A stretch of 64,000 nucleotides of DNA, taken from Caldisericia bacterium. GTDB taxonomy: Bacteria > Caldisericota > Caldisericia > B22-G15. Position 1 is the stretch's first letter; every line of letters begins with the position of its first letter. This document shows, in pieces, positions 1 to 26,313 of this stretch. Under the pieces are notes generated by a model. That model saw only the letters and a list, made by a program, of their open reading frames with translations. It did no database searches and was not told where the DNA came from. The stretch spans positions 147,939-211,938 of the forward strand of contig JASEFN010000003.1 in the NCBI GenBank assembly GCA_030018355.1. The letters run 5' to 3'. The position numbers were made by a program, and so were the translations under genes.

Positions 1-137
1 CCTTTTGCTTGTTCAACGTTTACTACCTCTATTTTTTCAGCGTAATCTTTTGCCCTTCTAATATGGGTTGGAATATCAACACATTTATCCACTGGATCAT
101 GAAGAAAAGCTTTTAACTTTTCACCAAAATTACTCAT
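1..137 (-). CDS. cmr2: Cmr2/Cas10 of type III-B CRISPR complex (N-terminal fragment, runs off window)
   Basis: Only the first 45 codons are visible; the gene continues beyond base 1. The N-terminus carries the pattern KLKAFLHDPVDK, which matches the opening of the HD nuclease domain of Cmr2/Cas10 (known for the family). Its ATG overlaps the TGA of cmr1 by four bases (ATGA), as expected in a translationally coupled cmr operon. In type III systems Cas10 is the large subunit with HD DNase and cyclic oligoadenylate synthase activities; neither the palm domain nor its GGDD motif can be checked here. The identification rests on the short motif plus the neighbouring cmr1. Confidence 0.75.
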   Translation of the reverse strand, partial: MSNFGEKLKAFLHDPVDKCVDIPTHIRRAKDYAEKIEVVNVEQAK

Positions 138-1195
138 AAAGTTAACTCCTTTGTAGGCTTTAAATAATCTCTAAAAGATGACAATATCTCAAAAGTGATT
201 TCTTGAACTTCTTTTGTATTACTCCAATTATTACCAACTCTTTTTTCCTTTCCAATTAAATTAACTCCACCGGGATTCAAGAAAATGACAACAGGGAAGT
301 AAGTTTTTCCTTTCCCTTTAATTACCTTAAATATTACTGGCGAAGCCCATCTGTCCGAAAGTCGCTCCCTCCTATTTTTATAGGGAACTAATCGTGTGCT
401 AAAGCGATTATGCATAACAGGCATTCCGAATATTGCAGTTTTAAAAATTTCTTTTTTCTTGTTGCTTCTGAAATTTTTGTATTCTTCGCCTATAACATTA
501 AGTGCGTCTATCCATGAGCCTAAAGGTTCGAATAGAAGAATTTTCCCATTTTTTAGAGTAGTATACTGTGAACTACCTACATTAGCATTACATAACTGAA
601 TGACAATTTCTAAATTCTTTTTAAGCCAAATTTCCAAGTCGTCTACACTCATTGCATTACAATAAAACTCTATACCTCCAATATTATTTGGTTCAGCACT
701 TTCAACTGCAAGATTTCCACCCCCTCTTCTTGCTCTTGTTCCAAATCCACCAAGATAAATAGATGTCCATAACGCTGCGCTTGCTTTCCTAAAGAAATCA
801 TAATCAAATGAAATTATTTCAAGTGAAAAACTACTTTCTGGTTTATAATACCTCCTTATTATTGGTTCTCCCCTTACCCTTAATGAAAATGTTGAGTAAT
901 ATAAATATTTTAGTCCAGAATTATTATTGATTACTTCTCGAACGTCATTACCTATCTCAACTAAATCTGGCTTTACCATTACTCTCACCTTGCTTTTGCC
1001 CTCTCCCTTTTCCGTTCCCCCAAAAATTTCAGCTTCCTTTTCTCTTAAGGTTCCAATATCATCTTCTGCTTTTATTGCTCTCCACCACCACCTCATCATC
1101 CCTTTAAACTCTGAAGACCTTAACTCAGGAGTTCTACCATCAGCTCCAGCCATAAACATTGGTGTTATGATTTTGCACTCTAATCTTAATTCCAT
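134..1195 (-). CDS. cmr1: Type III-B CRISPR RAMP protein Cmr1
   Basis: A 353-residue RAMP-superfamily protein. The N-terminal signature FMAGADGRTPELR followed by SSEFKGMMRWWWRA, and the glycine-rich loop GGFGTRARRGGGNLA near residues 148-162, are the hallmarks of Cmr1. Cmr1 sits at the head of the Cmr effector complex and helps capture target RNA near the 3' end of the guide. It is the first gene of a minus-strand operon, with an AGGTGG ribosome-binding site about 8 nt before the ATG and an extended -10 promoter upstream; cmr2 follows with an ATGA overlap. No CRISPR array, cas1, cas2 or cas6 is visible on this side. Length is in the range usual for the family. Confidence 0.92.
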   Translation of the reverse strand: MELRLECKIITPMFMAGADGRTPELRSSEFKGMMRWWWRAIKAEDDIGTLREKEAEIFGGTEKGEGKSKVRVMVKPDLVEIGNDVREVINNNSGLKYLYYSTFSLRVRGEPIIRRYYKPESSFSLEIISFDYDFFRKASAALWTSIYLGGFGTRARRGGGNLAVESAEPNNIGGIEFYCNAMSVDDLEIWLKKNLEIVIQLCNANVGSSQYTTLKNGKILLFEPLGSWIDALNVIGEEYKNFRSNKKKEIFKTAIFGMPVMHNRFSTRLVPYKNRRERLSDRWASPVIFKVIKGKGKTYFPVVIFLNPGGVNLIGKEKRVGNNWSNTKEVQEITFEILSSFRDYLKPTKELTL

Positions 1196-1805: not shown

Positions 1806-2477
1806 ATGAAAAAGATACCATTAACTGTATATAAAAGAGATATTACAAGAAAAAGTGAACTTAAAAAACTAAGGATGAATAATTTAGTACCTGGAATAAT
1901 ATATGGAGAGGGTTTAAAAGAAAATCTTCCAATTTCTGTAAATAAAAAAGATTTAATAAAATTACTTAGATTGAAAAAAGAGGAAGATTTTCTTGTTGAA
2001 ATTGAAGTAAATGAAGACAAGAGTAAATATGTTGCATTAATTAAGGAGGAGCAGTATCATCCAGTTACAGATGAAATAATTCATGTTGATTTTCATTCTG
2101 TTTCTCTTGAAAAAGAAATTACAGCAATGGTTCCAATTCATTTTATAGGAGAACCAAAGGGCGTAAAAGAAGGTGGAGTTTTATATAAAGCACTTCATGA
2201 GATAGAAGTTGAAGCAAAACCACTTGATCTTCCATCCTTTATAGAAGTTGATATAAGTGGTCTTGGAATCGGAGATTCAATTCATATTGAAGATCTTAAA
2301 GTTCCTCCAGGTGTTAAAATTCTTCATGAACCATTCGAGACTGTTGTATCAGTAACAACAGTTGAAGAAGAGGAAGTTGAAGTAGCAAAACCTGAAGAAG
2401 GTATAACTCAAGAAACACCTCAGACTACACCAGAGAAGAAAGAAACGCCTGAAAAAGGTGTTCAAGAAAAAAAATAA
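1806..2477 (+). CDS. rplY: 50S ribosomal protein L25 (TL5/Ctc family)
   Basis: A 223-residue long-form L25. The N-terminal domain (about 1-95) is the 5S-rRNA-binding beta barrel, with the family pattern SELKKLRMNNLVPGIIYG near the start. The second domain (about 96-190) is the TL5/Ctc extension, with EEQYHPVTDEIIHVDFHSV and the DLPSFIEVDISGLGIGDSIHIEDL stretch typical of it. The last ~35 residues are a low-complexity acidic/threonine/lysine tail. Strong AAGGAGGA ribosome-binding site. It is followed after 3 bases by pth, the classic Ctc-Pth gene order of low-GC bacteria. Confidence 0.95.
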   Translation: MKKIPLTVYKRDITRKSELKKLRMNNLVPGIIYGEGLKENLPISVNKKDLIKLLRLKKEEDFLVEIEVNEDKSKYVALIKEEQYHPVTDEIIHVDFHSVSLEKEITAMVPIHFIGEPKGVKEGGVLYKALHEIEVEAKPLDLPSFIEVDISGLGIGDSIHIEDLKVPPGVKILHEPFETVVSVTTVEEEEVEVAKPEEGITQETPQTTPEKKETPEKGVQEKK

Positions 2478-2480
2478 ATT

Positions 2481-3065
2481 GTGTATATACTTGCAGGACT
2501 TGGAAATCCAGAATTTGAATATATAGGTACAAGACATAATATTGGTTTTGATTTTATAAATTTTTTATCCAAAAGACTAAAAATTAAAATTCAAAAATTA
2601 AAGTGGAAGGCAGAAATAGGGGAAGGTGTTATCTATTTTGAAGATAAAAAAGAAGAAATTTTACTTGTAAAGCCAATAACTTATATGAACCTTTCTGGTG
2701 AATCAATTTTAGAAATTGTTTCTAATTTAAAGATAGATTTAAATAAACTTGTTGTTATTCATGATGATATGGATTTACCGATTGGGGGAGTGCATTTTAT
2801 TTTTGATAGAGGAGATGGAGGGCATAAGGGAATAAAGTCAATAGTTGAAAAGTTAAAAACAAATGAATTTTTTAGATTAAGATTTGGAATTGGTAGACCA
2901 CCGCAAGAATTAGACCCAGTCAATTATGTTTTGAGTCCAATAACAATCATTGAAAGAAGAAAATTAAAAGAAGCATTTAATTTAGGGGAAGAGATAATTA
3001 AAACTTTCATTTTTTATGGTGCAGAAAAAGCGATTTCAAAATCTAACAAAAAAGGAATTTATTAA
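2481..3065 (+). CDS. pth: Peptidyl-tRNA hydrolase
   Basis: A 194-residue enzyme that recycles tRNA by cleaving peptidyl-tRNA released from stalled ribosomes. The N-terminus LAGLGNPEFEYIGTRHNIGFD holds the conserved Asn and catalytic His (His19 region), and VVIHDDMDLPIGG holds the catalytic Asp. GRPP and the preceding HKGIKSI stretch are also conserved. Starts with GTG, three bases after the rplY stop; there is no separate ribosome-binding site beyond the purine-rich end of rplY. The following gene, mfd, starts inside its 3' end. Confidence 0.95.
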   Translation: MYILAGLGNPEFEYIGTRHNIGFDFINFLSKRLKIKIQKLKWKAEIGEGVIYFEDKKEEILLVKPITYMNLSGESILEIVSNLKIDLNKLVVIHDDMDLPIGGVHFIFDRGDGGHKGIKSIVEKLKTNEFFRLRFGIGRPPQELDPVNYVLSPITIIERRKLKEAFNLGEEIIKTFIFYGAEKAISKSNKKGIY

Positions 3066-6003
3066 TATCCTTTTTTCAGATTATAAAAAAGAGTTTAAAA
3101 ATATTGGTGGAATAACAAGGGGTGCATTACCATTTTTTATTTTATTTTTAAAAGAAAATTATTATCCTAAAATTGCTTTTATTTTAGAAGATGAAGATGA
3201 ACTTTATGAAATTTATGAAGAGACCCTTTCTTTCGATGAAAATAAAGAAGAAGCATTTCTAAAAGATCCTGAAATAGATGAAATAAATTTAAAAAATTTT
3301 GTAAAAACTTTAAAAATAATCAATGAAAGAGAAAAAGTTATTCTATTTTTAAAAAGTGAAACTTTAAAAAGAAATATTCTTTTTGAGAATGAAATTATAA
3401 AAGTTAAGAAAGGAGATGTGCTTAATTTTGAAAATTTCATAAAAAAATTTTTTAATCAATATAATAGAGTAAATTATGTTGAAAATCCACTTGAATTTGC
3501 AATAAGAGGTGGAATTATCGACTTTTTTCCATTAACAAGTGAAAATCCAATTAGAGTTGTTTTTGATGGAAATACAATAGAAAGTATAAGAGAGTTTGAT
3601 ATTATATCTCAACGCTCAATTAAAGAAATGGATGAAATAGTTATAAAAAATTTTAAGGAGGGTATAAATATTTTTGAATATTTAAAAGATTCATATATTT
3701 TTTTAACATATAAAGAAAATTTTGATATAGATAATCTAATTAAAATTTATGATGAAAAGATTAAAGATTTTAGTTTCGATTTTACATCGATTTCTACTTT
3801 TTACACTTTAAATAAAACAAAAGAACTTATTGAAGATTTAAAGAAAAACGGCTTTGAGATTTTTTATATAGGATTTGATAATGGATTTTCTCAAAATTTA
3901 GAAGGAGTAATAAAAGAAAATTTTGTAAGTGTAGATAAAAAAATTGCAGTTGTTGGTAAAAAAAGAAAGCCAAGTTTTCCACATAGAAGATTATCGCCTT
4001 CTCTTATTGAAGAGATTGAATCAATAAAGGAATTAAAAAGAGGAGATATAGTAGTACATGTTGATTTTGGAATTGGAAGATATGAAGGATTAATCACATT
4101 AGAAAGAGAAGGAAAATCTAAAGATTATATTTTAATTGAATATGATAAAAATGAAAAACTTTATGTTCCAGTTGAAAAGATTGAAAGAATAAAAAAGTAT
4201 ATTGGAGATATTGAGAATGTATCTCTTTCAAGATTAGGAGGAAATGAGTGGAATAAATCAAAAGAAAAAGCACGAGAAGATATAGTTAAATTTGCAAAAG
4301 AACTGCTGACACTCTATGCAAAAAGAGAGATTACTAAAAGGGTTCCATTTAGAGAATTTAAAGAGTTAGAGGAAGAATTTGCAAACTCTTTTGAGTTTGA
4401 TTTAACTTGTGATCAAGAAAAAGCAATAAGGGATCTTTTAAATGATCTTTCGAGTGAAAAAATTGCAGAGAGAGTTATTTGTGGTGATGTAGGATTTGGA
4501 AAAACTGAAGTTGCTTTAAGAGGTGCCTTAAGGGTTATTTTAAATGGAAAGCAGGTTTTACTTTTAACACCAACTACAATTCTTGCTATGCAGCATCTGA
4601 GGGTTATTAAAGATAGGTTTAAAAATTTACCAATAAGAATTGAGATGTTATCAAGATTATTAAGCGAAGGGGAAGAAAAAGAAATTTTAAAAGATTTAAA
4701 AGATGGGAAAATCGATTTTTTAATTGGAACTCATAGAGCCTTATCAGATGATGTAGTTTTCTTTGATCTTGGACTTTTAATTATTGATGAAGAACACCTT
4801 TTCGGAGTTGAACATAAAGAGAAAATTAAAAAATTAAAAGAAGATGTAGATACAATTTATCTTTCTGCCACACCAATTCCAAGAACACTTGAGATGGCTT
4901 TATCTGGAATAAAAGATATCTCAATAATAAGAACTCCTCCTATTGGAAGATATCCAATTGAAACAAAAGTTATGCCTTTTGATCCATTTGAAATTAAAGT
5001 TGCAATAGAAAAAGAGATTAAAAGGGATGGACAAGTTTACTATGTTCATAACAGAATAGAAACAATAGAAAAAGAAAAAGCATTTCTCTTATCCCTCATT
5101 CCTAATCTTAGAATTTTAGTTTTACATGGAAGATTAGATCCAAAAGAAATAGAAGATGGCATGATTAAATTTTTAAATAAAGAGTTTGATCTTCTACTTT
5201 CAACAACTATAATTGAAGCAGGACTTGATAATGAAAATGTAAACACAATAATTGTTGTTGATTCACAAAATTTTGGTTTATCACAACTCTACCAACTTAA
5301 AGGGAGAGTTGGAAGAAGAGATAAAAGAGCATTTGCGTATCTTTTTTATGATCCTAAAAAAACGACTGAACTAGGTAAAAAAAGATTAAAGGTTCTTGAG
5401 AGTTATTCTTTTTTAGGTGCTGGTTTTCAAGTTGCTCTTAAAGATCTTGAGATAAGAGGTGCAGGTAATTTATTAGGAAAAGAACAATCTGGTCATATAA
5501 ATGCTCTTGGATTTGATTTATATTTTGAACTTATTGAAGAAGAGATAGCAAAACTAAAGGGAAAAGAGGTTGAACCAAAAATTTATACAGATCTTGAAAT
5601 AAATATTGATAATTCAATACCCCAAGACTACATAGAAGATGAGAAAACAAGATTTTATTATTACAGAAGATTTTTTGAAGCAAAGGATTTTGAAGAGATA
5701 GAAAATATAAAAGAAGAGTTAGAAGATAGATTTGGAAAAATTGATGAAAATATTAAGAATCTTATAGAAACCTCAAAATTAAATGTTTTGATGAAAAGGT
5801 ATAAAATTAAAAAAATAACCAATTTCAACAATCAAATTTTTATAAAACCAACAAATAAAACTCCAATTGATTCTATAAAAATTAAAACACTTGAAAAAAT
5901 TTTTTCAAATAGAATAAAATTTACACCAAGCGAGATAGTTATTCTTGACACTCAAAACCCTATCTCTGATGTTAAAAGATTTTTTGATGTTTTAAAAATT
6001 TAA
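3016..6003 (+). CDS. mfd: Transcription-repair coupling factor (DEAD/DEAH helicase)
   Basis: A 995-residue Mfd, somewhat shorter than the ~1150 of enterobacteria. Order of domains: UvrB-like N-terminal modules (with the AIRGGIIDFFPL motif near 155), CarD-like RNA-polymerase interaction domain (RGDIVVHVDFGIGRYEGL near 341), helicase domain 1 with Walker A DVGFGKTE near 490, DEEH box near 590 and SATPIPRT, helicase domain 2 ending in QLKGRVGRRDKR near 760, then the TRCF C-terminal domain. It removes stalled RNA polymerase at lesions and recruits UvrA, which is encoded at 48.6-51.4 kb. The ATG lies 50 bases inside pth and has no clear ribosome-binding site, so translation is probably coupled. 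Confidence 0.95.
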   Translation: MVQKKRFQNLTKKEFINILFSDYKKEFKNIGGITRGALPFFILFLKENYYPKIAFILEDEDELYEIYEETLSFDENKEEAFLKDPEIDEINLKNFVKTLKIINEREKVILFLKSETLKRNILFENEIIKVKKGDVLNFENFIKKFFNQYNRVNYVENPLEFAIRGGIIDFFPLTSENPIRVVFDGNTIESIREFDIISQRSIKEMDEIVIKNFKEGINIFEYLKDSYIFLTYKENFDIDNLIKIYDEKIKDFSFDFTSISTFYTLNKTKELIEDLKKNGFEIFYIGFDNGFSQNLEGVIKENFVSVDKKIAVVGKKRKPSFPHRRLSPSLIEEIESIKELKRGDIVVHVDFGIGRYEGLITLEREGKSKDYILIEYDKNEKLYVPVEKIERIKKYIGDIENVSLSRLGGNEWNKSKEKAREDIVKFAKELLTLYAKREITKRVPFREFKELEEEFANSFEFDLTCDQEKAIRDLLNDLSSEKIAERVICGDVGFGKTEVALRGALRVILNGKQVLLLTPTTILAMQHLRVIKDRFKNLPIRIEMLSRLLSEGEEKEILKDLKDGKIDFLIGTHRALSDDVVFFDLGLLIIDEEHLFGVEHKEKIKKLKEDVDTIYLSATPIPRTLEMALSGIKDISIIRTPPIGRYPIETKVMPFDPFEIKVAIEKEIKRDGQVYYVHNRIETIEKEKAFLLSLIPNLRILVLHGRLDPKEIEDGMIKFLNKEFDLLLSTTIIEAGLDNENVNTIIVVDSQNFGLSQLYQLKGRVGRRDKRAFAYLFYDPKKTTELGKKRLKVLESYSFLGAGFQVALKDLEIRGAGNLLGKEQSGHINALGFDLYFELIEEEIAKLKGKEVEPKIYTDLEINIDNSIPQDYIEDEKTRFYYYRRFFEAKDFEEIENIKEELEDRFGKIDENIKNLIETSKLNVLMKRYKIKKITNFNNQIFIKPTNKTPIDSIKIKTLEKIFSNRIKFTPSEIVILDTQNPISDVKRFFDVLKI

Positions 6004-18814: not shown

Positions 18815-19443
18815 ATAAATAGATTTTTGTATGGATAGATTACAATTTTTCCATTTTCAACAAGAGCAATTGATGCAATTTCTTTTCTTCTTTTTGATAT
18901 ATTCTCTTCCAAAACTATATCCCCTATTTGTAGTCTTTTTGGTCTTAAGTTTGTTGCAACAACAATAGCATCTTCACCGCTTTCTCTCCCTGCAATAACA
19001 CTTCCTCTTAACGATCCAAAAACAAATAAACTTCCACCAGAGACTATTTCAGCATCTTCATTTACATCTCCAATTAATATTATATTTCCACTATAATTTA
19101 ATGTTTGACCAGATCTTAATATTCTTTTAATCACAAGGAAATCTTTTAGAATCATCTTTTTATCTTTTTTAGAACTAACTTGTGTCTCCTCTTTTTCGAA
19201 AAACTCACAATCTATATCAAATTTATTTGACATTAAATTTTTTATTTCCAAAATTTCATTTTCAGAAAATGTCCCAGTTACTGGAAAAAATTTTATAGAA
19301 CCTCCTCTAAAAAATTCTTCTCTTTCAGAAATTTTTTTCTCAAGAGCCTTAAGAATTGTATTAAATGAATATGAAAGATCAATATAGGCTATAATTCCAT
19401 CTTTTGTTCCTTTAAAATTAACTGCATTTTTAGGAATTCTCAA
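18811..19443 (-). CDS. minC: Septum-site-determining protein MinC
   Basis: A 210-residue MinC. The N-terminal domain (about 1-95) is divergent; the C-terminal beta-helix domain (about 108-205) is clear: RSGQTLNYSGNIILIGDVNEDAEIVSGGSLFVFGSLRGSVIAG and the end segment PKRLQIGDIV. MinC inhibits FtsZ assembly away from midcell when bound to MinD. No minD or minE is present in the window. Located directly after maf, an arrangement also seen near maf-mre-min clusters of Firmicutes. Confidence 0.93.
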   Translation of the reverse strand: MRIPKNAVNFKGTKDGIIAYIDLSYSFNTILKALEKKISEREEFFRGGSIKFFPVTGTFSENEILEIKNLMSNKFDIDCEFFEKEETQVSSKKDKKMILKDFLVIKRILRSGQTLNYSGNIILIGDVNEDAEIVSGGSLFVFGSLRGSVIAGRESGEDAIVVATNLRPKRLQIGDIVLEENISKRRKEIASIALVENGKIVIYPYKNLFI

Positions 19444-20011
19444 AAATAACCTCCTTTAATTTCTTAATAAATTTTACCACAGGAAATCCAACAATAGTAT
19501 AAAAACAGCCTTCAAATTTTTCTATAAGATAACTTCCCAAACCTTGAATTGCATATCCTCCAGCTTTATCAAATGGTTCATGGGTTTGAATATAGTTTAA
19601 TATCTCCTCCTTTTTTAAATCTTTGAATTTAACTTTTGCAATACTATATCCCATTCCCTCTTTATTATTATAAATGAAATAAAAACCAGAACAAACTATA
19701 TGCCACTTGTTTGAGAGTGTTTGAAGCATATTAAATGCATCATCTTCATTTTTAGGCTTTCCAAAAATTTTATTATCATAAACTACAACTGTATCACCTG
19801 AGACATAAATTTCATTTTGTTTTCTTTCAATAGATAAAACTTTAATTTTTGAATTTTCAATTGTTAGTTTTATATAATCTCCATCTTCTAATTCAAGACT
19901 ATTTGGAGTTATTTTTTTTACTACAAAAAATTTTTTTAAAATATCAAACCTTCTTTTCGAATTTGAAACGAGATTTATTTTACCAGGGAGATTTTCTTTT
20001 TTCATCCTCAT
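19430..20011 (-). CDS. maf: Maf-family nucleoside triphosphate pyrophosphatase
   Basis: A 193-residue protein with the Maf opening SNSKRRFDILKKF (family: SASPRRxELL), the catalytic-Asp segment VSGDTVVVYDNKIFGKPKNEDDAFNML (family: ADTvV...GKP...EA..mL), and the C-terminal FDKAGGYAIQGLGSYLIEKFEGCFYTIVGFPV. Maf enzymes hydrolyse non-canonical or canonical nucleotides to monophosphates and are linked to septum inhibition. Starts inside the 3' end of the Gx gene (ATG at 20011 or 20005). Note VSGD replaces the usual AAD/ADT. Confidence 0.92.
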   Translation of the reverse strand: MRMKKENLPGKINLVSNSKRRFDILKKFFVVKKITPNSLELEDGDYIKLTIENSKIKVLSIERKQNEIYVSGDTVVVYDNKIFGKPKNEDDAFNMLQTLSNKWHIVCSGFYFIYNNKEGMGYSIAKVKFKDLKKEEILNYIQTHEPFDKAGGYAIQGLGSYLIEKFEGCFYTIVGFPVVKFIKKLKEVIFENS

Positions 20012-25097: not shown

Positions 25098-25106
25098 ATT
25101 ATAACA
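25098..25106 (-). promoter_or_regulatory. Extended -10 promoter of the nfnA operon
   Basis: The minus strand reads TGTTATAAT (TGnTATAAT) about 32 nt before the nfnA start codon, leaving room for the AGGAGG site. No obvious -35 box. Confidence 0.55.
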
Positions 25107-25117
25107 TGAAGATATAA

Positions 25118-25126
25118 TGATATAAT
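25118..25126 (+). promoter_or_regulatory. Extended -10 promoter placed for a leaderless transcript
   Basis: TGATATAAT ends exactly 6 nt before the ATG of the phosphatase-MazG gene, which has no ribosome-binding site. A second TATAAT lies at 25113-25118. Transcription from the nearer box would begin at or next to the ATG. Confidence 0.55.
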
Positions 25127-25132
25127 TATTTT

Positions 25133-25969
25133 ATGCAGAATCCATTTAACAATTTTTCTTGGATAGTTGAGGATTTTCTTGCTGCCTCTGAATATCCAGA
25201 TAATGAATTAAAATTTAATTTTTTAAAAGAAAATAAAATTAGGTCAATTATAACTTTATCTGAAAGAAAAATACCTGAATCTTTAATTGAAAAATATAGA
25301 ATGAGATATCTATATTTACCTGTTAAAGACTTTGATGTTCCTTCACTTGAACAAGTAAAAAAATTTATATATTGGATTAATTTAATGGAAGCATGGGAAG
25401 TAAGAACTTTAATTCATTGTGATGCAGGAATAGGAAGAACAGGAACTTTTGTGGCAATTTATTTTCTTTTAAAGGGTTATTCACCAAAAGAAAGCATTGA
25501 GCAATTAAAAAGAAAAAGAAATTTCGGTATAGAAACTTTAAAACAAGAAAGTTTTATATACGAATTATATGAAATTTTACCATTTTTGAAACCTAGTGAA
25601 GAGGAGTTAAATTTTAGAATATTTTTTGAGACAGTTAAAACTTTAAGAAAAGAGTGTCCATGGGATAAAGAACAAACAAGGGAATCTCTTGTAAAATATC
25701 TTGATAGTGAAGTTCAAGAACTTAAAGATGCAATTAATAGAAAAGATATTTTAAATATTTCAGAAGAACTTGGTGATGTTATGTTAGAAATTCTTTTTCA
25801 GATTATAATTGGAGAAGAGAAAGAAGAATTTACAATGAATGATGTTTTAAAAAAAGTAATTAAAAAACTAGTCTTAAGACATCCTCATGTTTTTAAAGAT
25901 GAAATTGTTAATAATTCAAAAGATGTTGAGGAGAGATGGGAAGAATGGAAGAAGAGAGAGAGATTATAA
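25133..25969 (+). CDS. Dual-specificity phosphatase fused to MazG N-terminal domain
   Basis: A 278-residue fusion. Residues about 5-150 are a tyrosine/dual-specificity phosphatase domain with IHCDAGIGRTGTF (Cys96, Arg102 of the HCxxGxxRT loop). Residues about 160-275 are the N-terminal half of MazG (CPWDKEQTRESL at 175-186, EELGD at 211-215, LVLRHPHVF near 247). The MazG metal motif EExxE reads SEVQE (192-196), so one acidic ligand is lost and this half may be weak or structural. The C-terminal MazG half is the next gene, overlapping by 34 bases in another frame. Predicted leaderless: the -10 box ends 6 nt before the ATG. The fusion is well supported; its substrate is unknown. Confidence 0.88.
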   Translation: MQNPFNNFSWIVEDFLAASEYPDNELKFNFLKENKIRSIITLSERKIPESLIEKYRMRYLYLPVKDFDVPSLEQVKKFIYWINLMEAWEVRTLIHCDAGIGRTGTFVAIYFLLKGYSPKESIEQLKRKRNFGIETLKQESFIYELYEILPFLKPSEEELNFRIFFETVKTLRKECPWDKEQTRESLVKYLDSEVQELKDAINRKDILNISEELGDVMLEILFQIIIGEEKEEFTMNDVLKKVIKKLVLRHPHVFKDEIVNNSKDVEERWEEWKKRERL

Positions 25970-26313
25970 GAGAGATAATTGATTTCCAGAATTATCTTAA
26001 AAATCAATATGGATTTGATTGGGATAATGCATATGGTGTTTTAGAAAAACTTGAAGAGGAGATTAAAGAATTAAGAGAAGCCATAAATAAAAATGATAAT
26101 AAGAATATAGAAGAAGAGTTTGGAGACATAATAATTACAATTGTTAATTTATCAAGATTTTTAGATTTAGATATAATTGATTCTCTTAAAAAAAGTTTTG
26201 AAAAATTTAAAGATAGATTTGAAAAGATGAAAAAATTGGCAGAAGAGAAAAATCTGAATTTGAAAGAATTAAAAATCAATCAACTTGATTTGCTTTGGGA
26301 AGAATCAAAATAA
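25936..26313 (+). CDS. mazG: MazG C-terminal domain protein (nucleotide pyrophosphohydrolase)
   Basis: A 125-residue protein matching the C-terminal domain of full-length MazG: YGFDWDNAYGVLEKLEEEIKELREAI, EEEFGDIIITIVNLSRFLDLD and SFEKFKDRFEKM. The metal-binding motif EEEIKE plus EEFGD is intact, unlike in the preceding half. In normal MazG these two domains are one chain; here the frames overlap by 34 bases with a -1 relationship. ATG 25936 or 25945 (the latter has GAGGAGAGA at better spacing). MazG removes aberrant or signalling nucleoside triphosphates. Confidence 0.88.
   Translation: MGRMEEEREIIREIIDFQNYLKNQYGFDWDNAYGVLEKLEEEIKELREAINKNDNKNIEEEFGDIIITIVNLSRFLDLDIIDSLKKSFEKFKDRFEKMKKLAEEKNLNLKELKINQLDLLWEESK

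Follow-up and report, generated by a model that had tools for sequence, protein, structure and literature searches.

A putative two-subunit MazG pyrophosphohydrolase with an attached DSP-type phosphatase domain

A locus at which a tyrosine phosphatase domain is joined to one half of MazG, with the other half in a second, overlapping frame, raises the question of whether the split is real and, if so, what enzyme the two frames encode. The features of the locus are listed in Table 1; the window is the whole stretch of 64,000 nt that was analysed. The initial annotation had described a DSP domain, with Cys96 and Arg102, fused to MazG-N, and a separate MazG-C gene that overlaps it in the -1 frame. 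The fusion is borne out by the translation and the Pfam domains, and the coordinates and the 34-nt overlap agree with a separate second gene, whose frame is -1 relative to ORF1. In Pfam, ORF1 matches PTP-SAK/DSP with 71 bits (residues 6–128) and MazG with 77 bits (residues 181–254), and ORF2 matches MazG with 45 bits. The two MazG repeats, one per ORF, are both above the Pfam cut-off (PF03819) and are on separate chains. NCBIfam models of full-length MazG show the same division, with the N-terminal half matched by ORF1 and the C-terminal half by ORF2. The curated cut-off of the MazG equivalog PRK09562 (208 bits) is missed by both ORFs (128 and 97 bits) because each represents half of a MazG. 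ORF2 is without the linker found in intact MazG. The genome is rated 100% complete; it has no further MazG domains beyond those of ORF1 and ORF2, and the PTP-SAK domain of ORF1 is its only one.

Table 1. Features of the gene pair and its upstream region (positions in the window)
Feature	Position	Strand	Basis or remark
ORF1, DSP-type phosphatase joined to MazG-N, 278 aa	25133..25969	+	Translation, Pfam, NCBIfam
ORF2, free-standing MazG-C, 125 aa	25936..26313	+	Translation, Pfam, NCBIfam
ORF1/ORF2 overlap, 34 nt	25936..25969	+	ORF2 start ATG inside conserved RWEE codons of ORF1
DSP/PTP domain, residues about 6–147	25148..25573	+	Pfam PTP-SAK 1.4e-19; PDB sequence matches; AlphaFold2 model
Asp66, likely general acid (VKDFD)	25328..25330	+	Aligned with IPDF of DUSP23; role inferred
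PTP loop HCDAGIGRT (H95, Cys96, Arg102)	25415..25441	+	Translation; no change of Cys or Arg within the window's family
MazG-N domain, residues about 163–277	25619..25963	+	Mg ligands E193, E196, E212, D215; S192 where most MazGs have Glu
TATAAT, about 6 nt 5' of ORF1 ATG	25121..25126	+	Conserved in four species; possible promoter

The two-gene arrangement is common to all four genomes of the genus (G000–G003), with identities of 62–85%. The overlap is 31 or 34 nt in the four species and the frame offset is -1 in each. In G000–G003 the ATG of ORF2 arises, out of frame, from the bases that encode the conserved Arg-Trp-Glu-Glu of ORF1 (AGATGGGAAGAA). Within-pair pN/pS values are 0.11–0.24 for all parts of both ORFs, which points to purifying selection. 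Gene order on both flanks is preserved in G003 and G001, and in G002 to the end of its short contig. ORF1 is conserved across G001–G004 at 55–85% identity, the lowest value being that of G004, the fifth member of the family, whose contig stops at the split point. No MazG-C was found in G004 at E <= 1e-6, and two weaker matches were rejected as they resemble chance or ORF1 itself. A sequencing error is ruled out as the origin of the split by its recurrence in each of the four genomes of the genus and by the purifying selection. It had been proposed that orthologues with an intact MazG frame would mark the split as an indel; intact orthologues do exist in other families, but a split shared by four congeners is no indel. 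The comparison indicates that the split in this genus is a genuine derived feature.

The sequence directly 5' of the ORF1 ATG, AATGATATAATTA (positions 25106–25135), is conserved in four species, and a TATAAT so near to the ATG would possibly give a leaderless mRNA. Leaderless transcription was not retained as a general feature, as TATAAT precedes ATG 17 times in the window, with 13.3 expected, which is no excess. Two other frames of the window were identified by eye. A 353-aa ORF near the window edge (positions 134–1195, minus strand) resembles a type III CRISPR RAMP protein (Cmr1-like), and the frame at positions 19430–20011 (minus strand) resembles a Maf-type nucleotide pyrophosphatase, another housecleaning enzyme.

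Both MazG halves appear equipped to bind metal. In MazG of M. tuberculosis, Mg is held by E119, E122, E138 and D141 (PMC10014863), and alignment to this protein (7YH5) places E193, E196, E212 and D215 of ORF1 at these positions. The motif of MazG-N reads S192-E193-VQ-E196, and Ser192 aligns with M. tuberculosis E118, which is not a ligand there. The SEVQE motif is as first described, but the metal ligand that it was taken to have lost is not missing: the alignment rules this out, and every complete sequence compared keeps the four Mg ligands in each of its MazG halves. The EEEIKE of MazG-C is likewise kept, with its first Glu and the ligands E42, E45, E61 and D64 all present. Among 22 MazGs, conservation of the first Glu of EExxE reaches at least 90%, and this residue could matter for a second metal; it deviates in MazG-N alone. 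At this position MazG-N has Ser in G000 and G003, Asp in G002, G004 and families f5 and f6, and Glu in G001. Asp or Ser mostly accompanies the full Asp/Cys/Arg set of the DSP domain, which may be a coincidence of descent.

The DSP part of ORF1 has the HCx5R loop and the fold of the PTP-SAK and DSPc phosphatases, and D66 is in place as the presumed general acid. PDB sequence matches are DUSP23, TkPTP and SsoPTP. The AlphaFold2 model matches DUSP23/VHZ, PRL, TkPTP and SsoPTP by Foldseek, with a TM of 0.70 by target length for the ORF1 model against DUSP23. Equivalents of Asp66 are retained in families f1, f5 and f6. Within the genus, pN/pS is 0.18 for the DSP part and 0.20 for MazG-N. The DSP domain in this genus is probably a working cysteine phosphatase beside the MazG site, because it is constrained as strongly as MazG and D66, C96 and R102 are kept.

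A search for DSP-MazG fusions, as had been suggested, places the fusion across the phylum of the window and its relatives, inferred to be Caldisericota, and in Coprothermobacterota. In other families of the first phylum, one open frame of about 350–470 aa has an N-terminal domain, MazG-N and MazG-C, and nearly every MazG of the phylum has an N-terminal domain at this position. This distribution indicates that the DSP-MazG fusion is much older than the split. At 11 intact loci a frame of about 960–1230 aa ends beside the fusion gene and is usually preceded by a frame of about 190–230 aa. The large neighbour is Mfd in two of these loci (Pfam) and the smaller is Pth in one of the two; the downstream neighbour of the fusion gene varies. 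The window has rplY-pth-mfd at positions 1806–6003 (rplY and pth identified by reading the sequence) and no mazG after mfd. The gene has therefore moved about 19 kb and been split in this genus.

The search for the DSP domain covered 386 genomes. Beyond the phylum, and among the matches listed, DSP frames are about 160–350 aa, and none of these was found joined to MazG as judged by frame length. The exception is G368, which has an intact 413-aa DSP-MazG-N-MazG-C protein with the loop HCGAGVGRT. Its phylum, Coprothermobacterota, is represented by nine genomes, including Coprothermobacter platensis; the latter is placed there on the basis of a match start shared by G387 and the genome of locus L033. 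The N-terminal domain of C. platensis is shorter and lacks the motif. Profile alignment of this domain with the DSP of G368 gives 92% probability over 51 columns, and in an AlphaFold2 model of low confidence, made with the window protein in the alignment, DUSPs are matched after MazG with E values of 0.06–0.3. The N-terminal DSP appears to descend from a fusion common to Caldisericota and Coprothermobacterota. A comparable N-terminal domain is absent in 56 of 57 MazG loci of public genomes, C. platensis being the exception. Long open frames 5' of MazG in nine other genomes gave no DSP match and look like mostly spurious upstream frames. A phage or plasmid origin was rejected, as phages, plasmids and viral contigs yielded no DSP-MazG.

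The catalytic residues of the N-terminal domain are not conserved throughout. Equivalents of C96 and R102 are kept in f1 (the window's own family), f4, f5, f6, parts of f3 and f7, and the Coprothermobacterota family of G368. They are missing in f2, most of f3, genera g19 and g20 of f7, and other Coprothermobacterota; f3 includes G018, which lacks them and which we take to be Caldisericum exile. A maximum-likelihood tree of the MazG part requires the Cys/Arg pair to have changed between intact and lost at least five times; the precise count of losses depends on this tree, whose deep nodes are open. These changes appear to be at least five independent losses, because a residual domain persists. 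In the f2, g12 and cp250 (Coprothermobacterota) proteins, profile alignment of the N-terminal domain with DSP gives no significant match; position and context argue for its derivation from DSP. Where the motif is intact, dN/dS values of the N-terminal domain and MazG are 0.04 and 0.05, 0.07 and 0.10, and 0.18 and 0.09, so that constraint on the two is roughly equal. Where it is lost, values are 0.11–0.47 for the N-terminal domain and 0.02–0.17 for MazG, mostly higher in the former, yet below 1; some pairs are near saturation at silent sites. These values indicate that the motif-less domain is still under real, though weaker, constraint.

The reading of the gene pair that is preferred here, with a probability of about 0.6, is that it encodes an NTP pyrophosphohydrolase of two subunits, made as translationally coupled chains, to which a phosphatase is attached. 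The initial annotation had also suggested a two-protein enzyme, and this is judged the likely product of ORF1 and ORF2. MazG-N of ORF1 and MazG-C of ORF2 would associate and rebuild the tandem-MazG dimer, which would split canonical or damaged NTPs into NMP and pyrophosphate. The ratio of the chains would be fixed by coupled translation through the 34-nt overlap. Across both phyla the DSP domain would serve MazG in a structural or regulatory role that outlasts the loss of catalysis; in the window's lineage it would still be a cysteine phosphatase, acting on either a nucleotide product or a phosphoprotein. In M. tuberculosis MazG every truncation, including that of the N-terminal extra region, lowers activity (PMC10014863), in keeping with an N-terminal domain being structurally required.

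The two chains need not form a joint enzyme. ORF2 holds all four ligands and lacks the linker of intact MazG, single-domain MazG proteins do act alone, and free-standing MazG-C proteins without an adjoining MazG-N are found in other genomes (L171 of G193, 128 aa, and L174 of G168, 159 aa). ORF2 could then act alone as a small single-domain MazG, a homodimer or tetramer, with ORF1 mainly a phosphatase that uses MazG-N for dimerisation, and the deviation of S192 from the usual EExxE in two species would agree with this. However, purifying selection acts on MazG-N of ORF1 as it does on ORF2, all four Mg ligands are kept there, and the overlapping gene order is retained in all four species, so that separate action is unlikely. 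It is very improbable that a programmed -1 frameshift in the overlap produces one full DSP-MazG-N-MazG-C chain, as in the relatives, which was an earlier suggestion. The constant -1 offset, the overlap of 31–34 nt and a Lys-Lys AAA AAG in three of four species would suit such an event, but a canonical slippery heptamer of the form X_XXY_YYZ is absent from all four species, and the window itself reads AAG AAG. In three of the four, the ORF2 frame is closed by a stop codon directly 5' of the ORF2 ATG, and this ATG is conserved in all four. RNA structure just downstream is no better than chance (z 0.04). The absence of both the slippery site and the RNA stimulator argues against programmed frameshifting.

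Other alternatives concern the DSP domain and the substrate. That the domain is merely structural in the window's lineage as well, its intact motif a leftover, would agree with the repeated catalytic losses without loss of the domain. This is improbable: throughout the family D66, C96 and R102 do not vary, selection holds the DSP part as tightly as MazG-N, and the lineages without the motif mostly show relaxed constraint. A bifunctional enzyme in which MazG turns a damaged or signalling NTP into NMP and the adjacent DSP strips the last phosphate, a use abandoned several times with the domain staying as an activator of MazG, is a tentative and rather doubtful proposal. The initial annotation had suggested a possible action on a signalling nucleotide. 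A role of this kind, for instance the stepwise removal of phosphates from (p)ppGpp by MazG and DSP, is highly improbable. E. coli MazG is reported to lower (p)ppGpp, according to the account of Gross et al. 2006 given in PMC6850273, and RelA/SpoT is encoded in the genome. On the other side, the purified MazG proteins of Synechococcus and cyanophage show no binding of (p)ppGpp and no hydrolysis of it (PMC6850273), and the genome has a RelA/SpoT of its own. The context in the relatives is the housekeeping pth-mfd cluster, and the window locus showed no signalling gene.

In the open-access literature, no paper on DSP-MazG fusions was found, nor any account of the architecture, its spread in two phyla, its non-catalytic conversions or a tandem MazG in two genes. 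The component families are known. A phosphatase domain joined to a housekeeping pyrophosphohydrolase and kept in two phyla, though apparently disabled at least five times, provides a natural experiment on catalytic versus structural roles. The split in one genus suggests that a tandem MazG can be built from two chains, and with such natural half-enzymes it could be tested how MazG-N and MazG-C share the work.

The preferred two-subunit enzyme resembles MazG of E. coli (3CRA, 3CRC) and M. tuberculosis (7YH5) in its sequence, its tandem halves, the E-xx-E ... E-xx-D ligands of both halves and its predicted fold, but here the halves are separate chains and a DSP domain lies ahead of MazG-N. Bacillus YabN also has an N-terminal accessory enzyme domain on MazG, and among NCBIfam models the MazG-N half is matched best by YabN_Meth_PPase. 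In YabN, however, the accessory domain is a methyltransferase and not a phosphatase, and the protein is a single chain. The yabN gene of Bacillus lies near pth-mfd. M. tuberculosis MazG has an alpha/beta extension before MazG-N (residues 1–85) that is needed for full activity (PMC10014863). This region is only about 85 residues. Foldseek aligns models m23e8f4339df0 and m72a98318911a with 7YH5 over about 200–220 columns, more than MazG-N alone, with a large rmsd, and the mycobacterial region may perhaps be another relic accessory domain. The stand-alone phosphatases DUSP23/VHZ, TkPTP and SsoPTP (PTP-SAK/DSPc) have the same fold, HCx5R loop and likely general acid as the DSP of the window. They are single-domain proteins, whereas the DSP of the window is fused to MazG.
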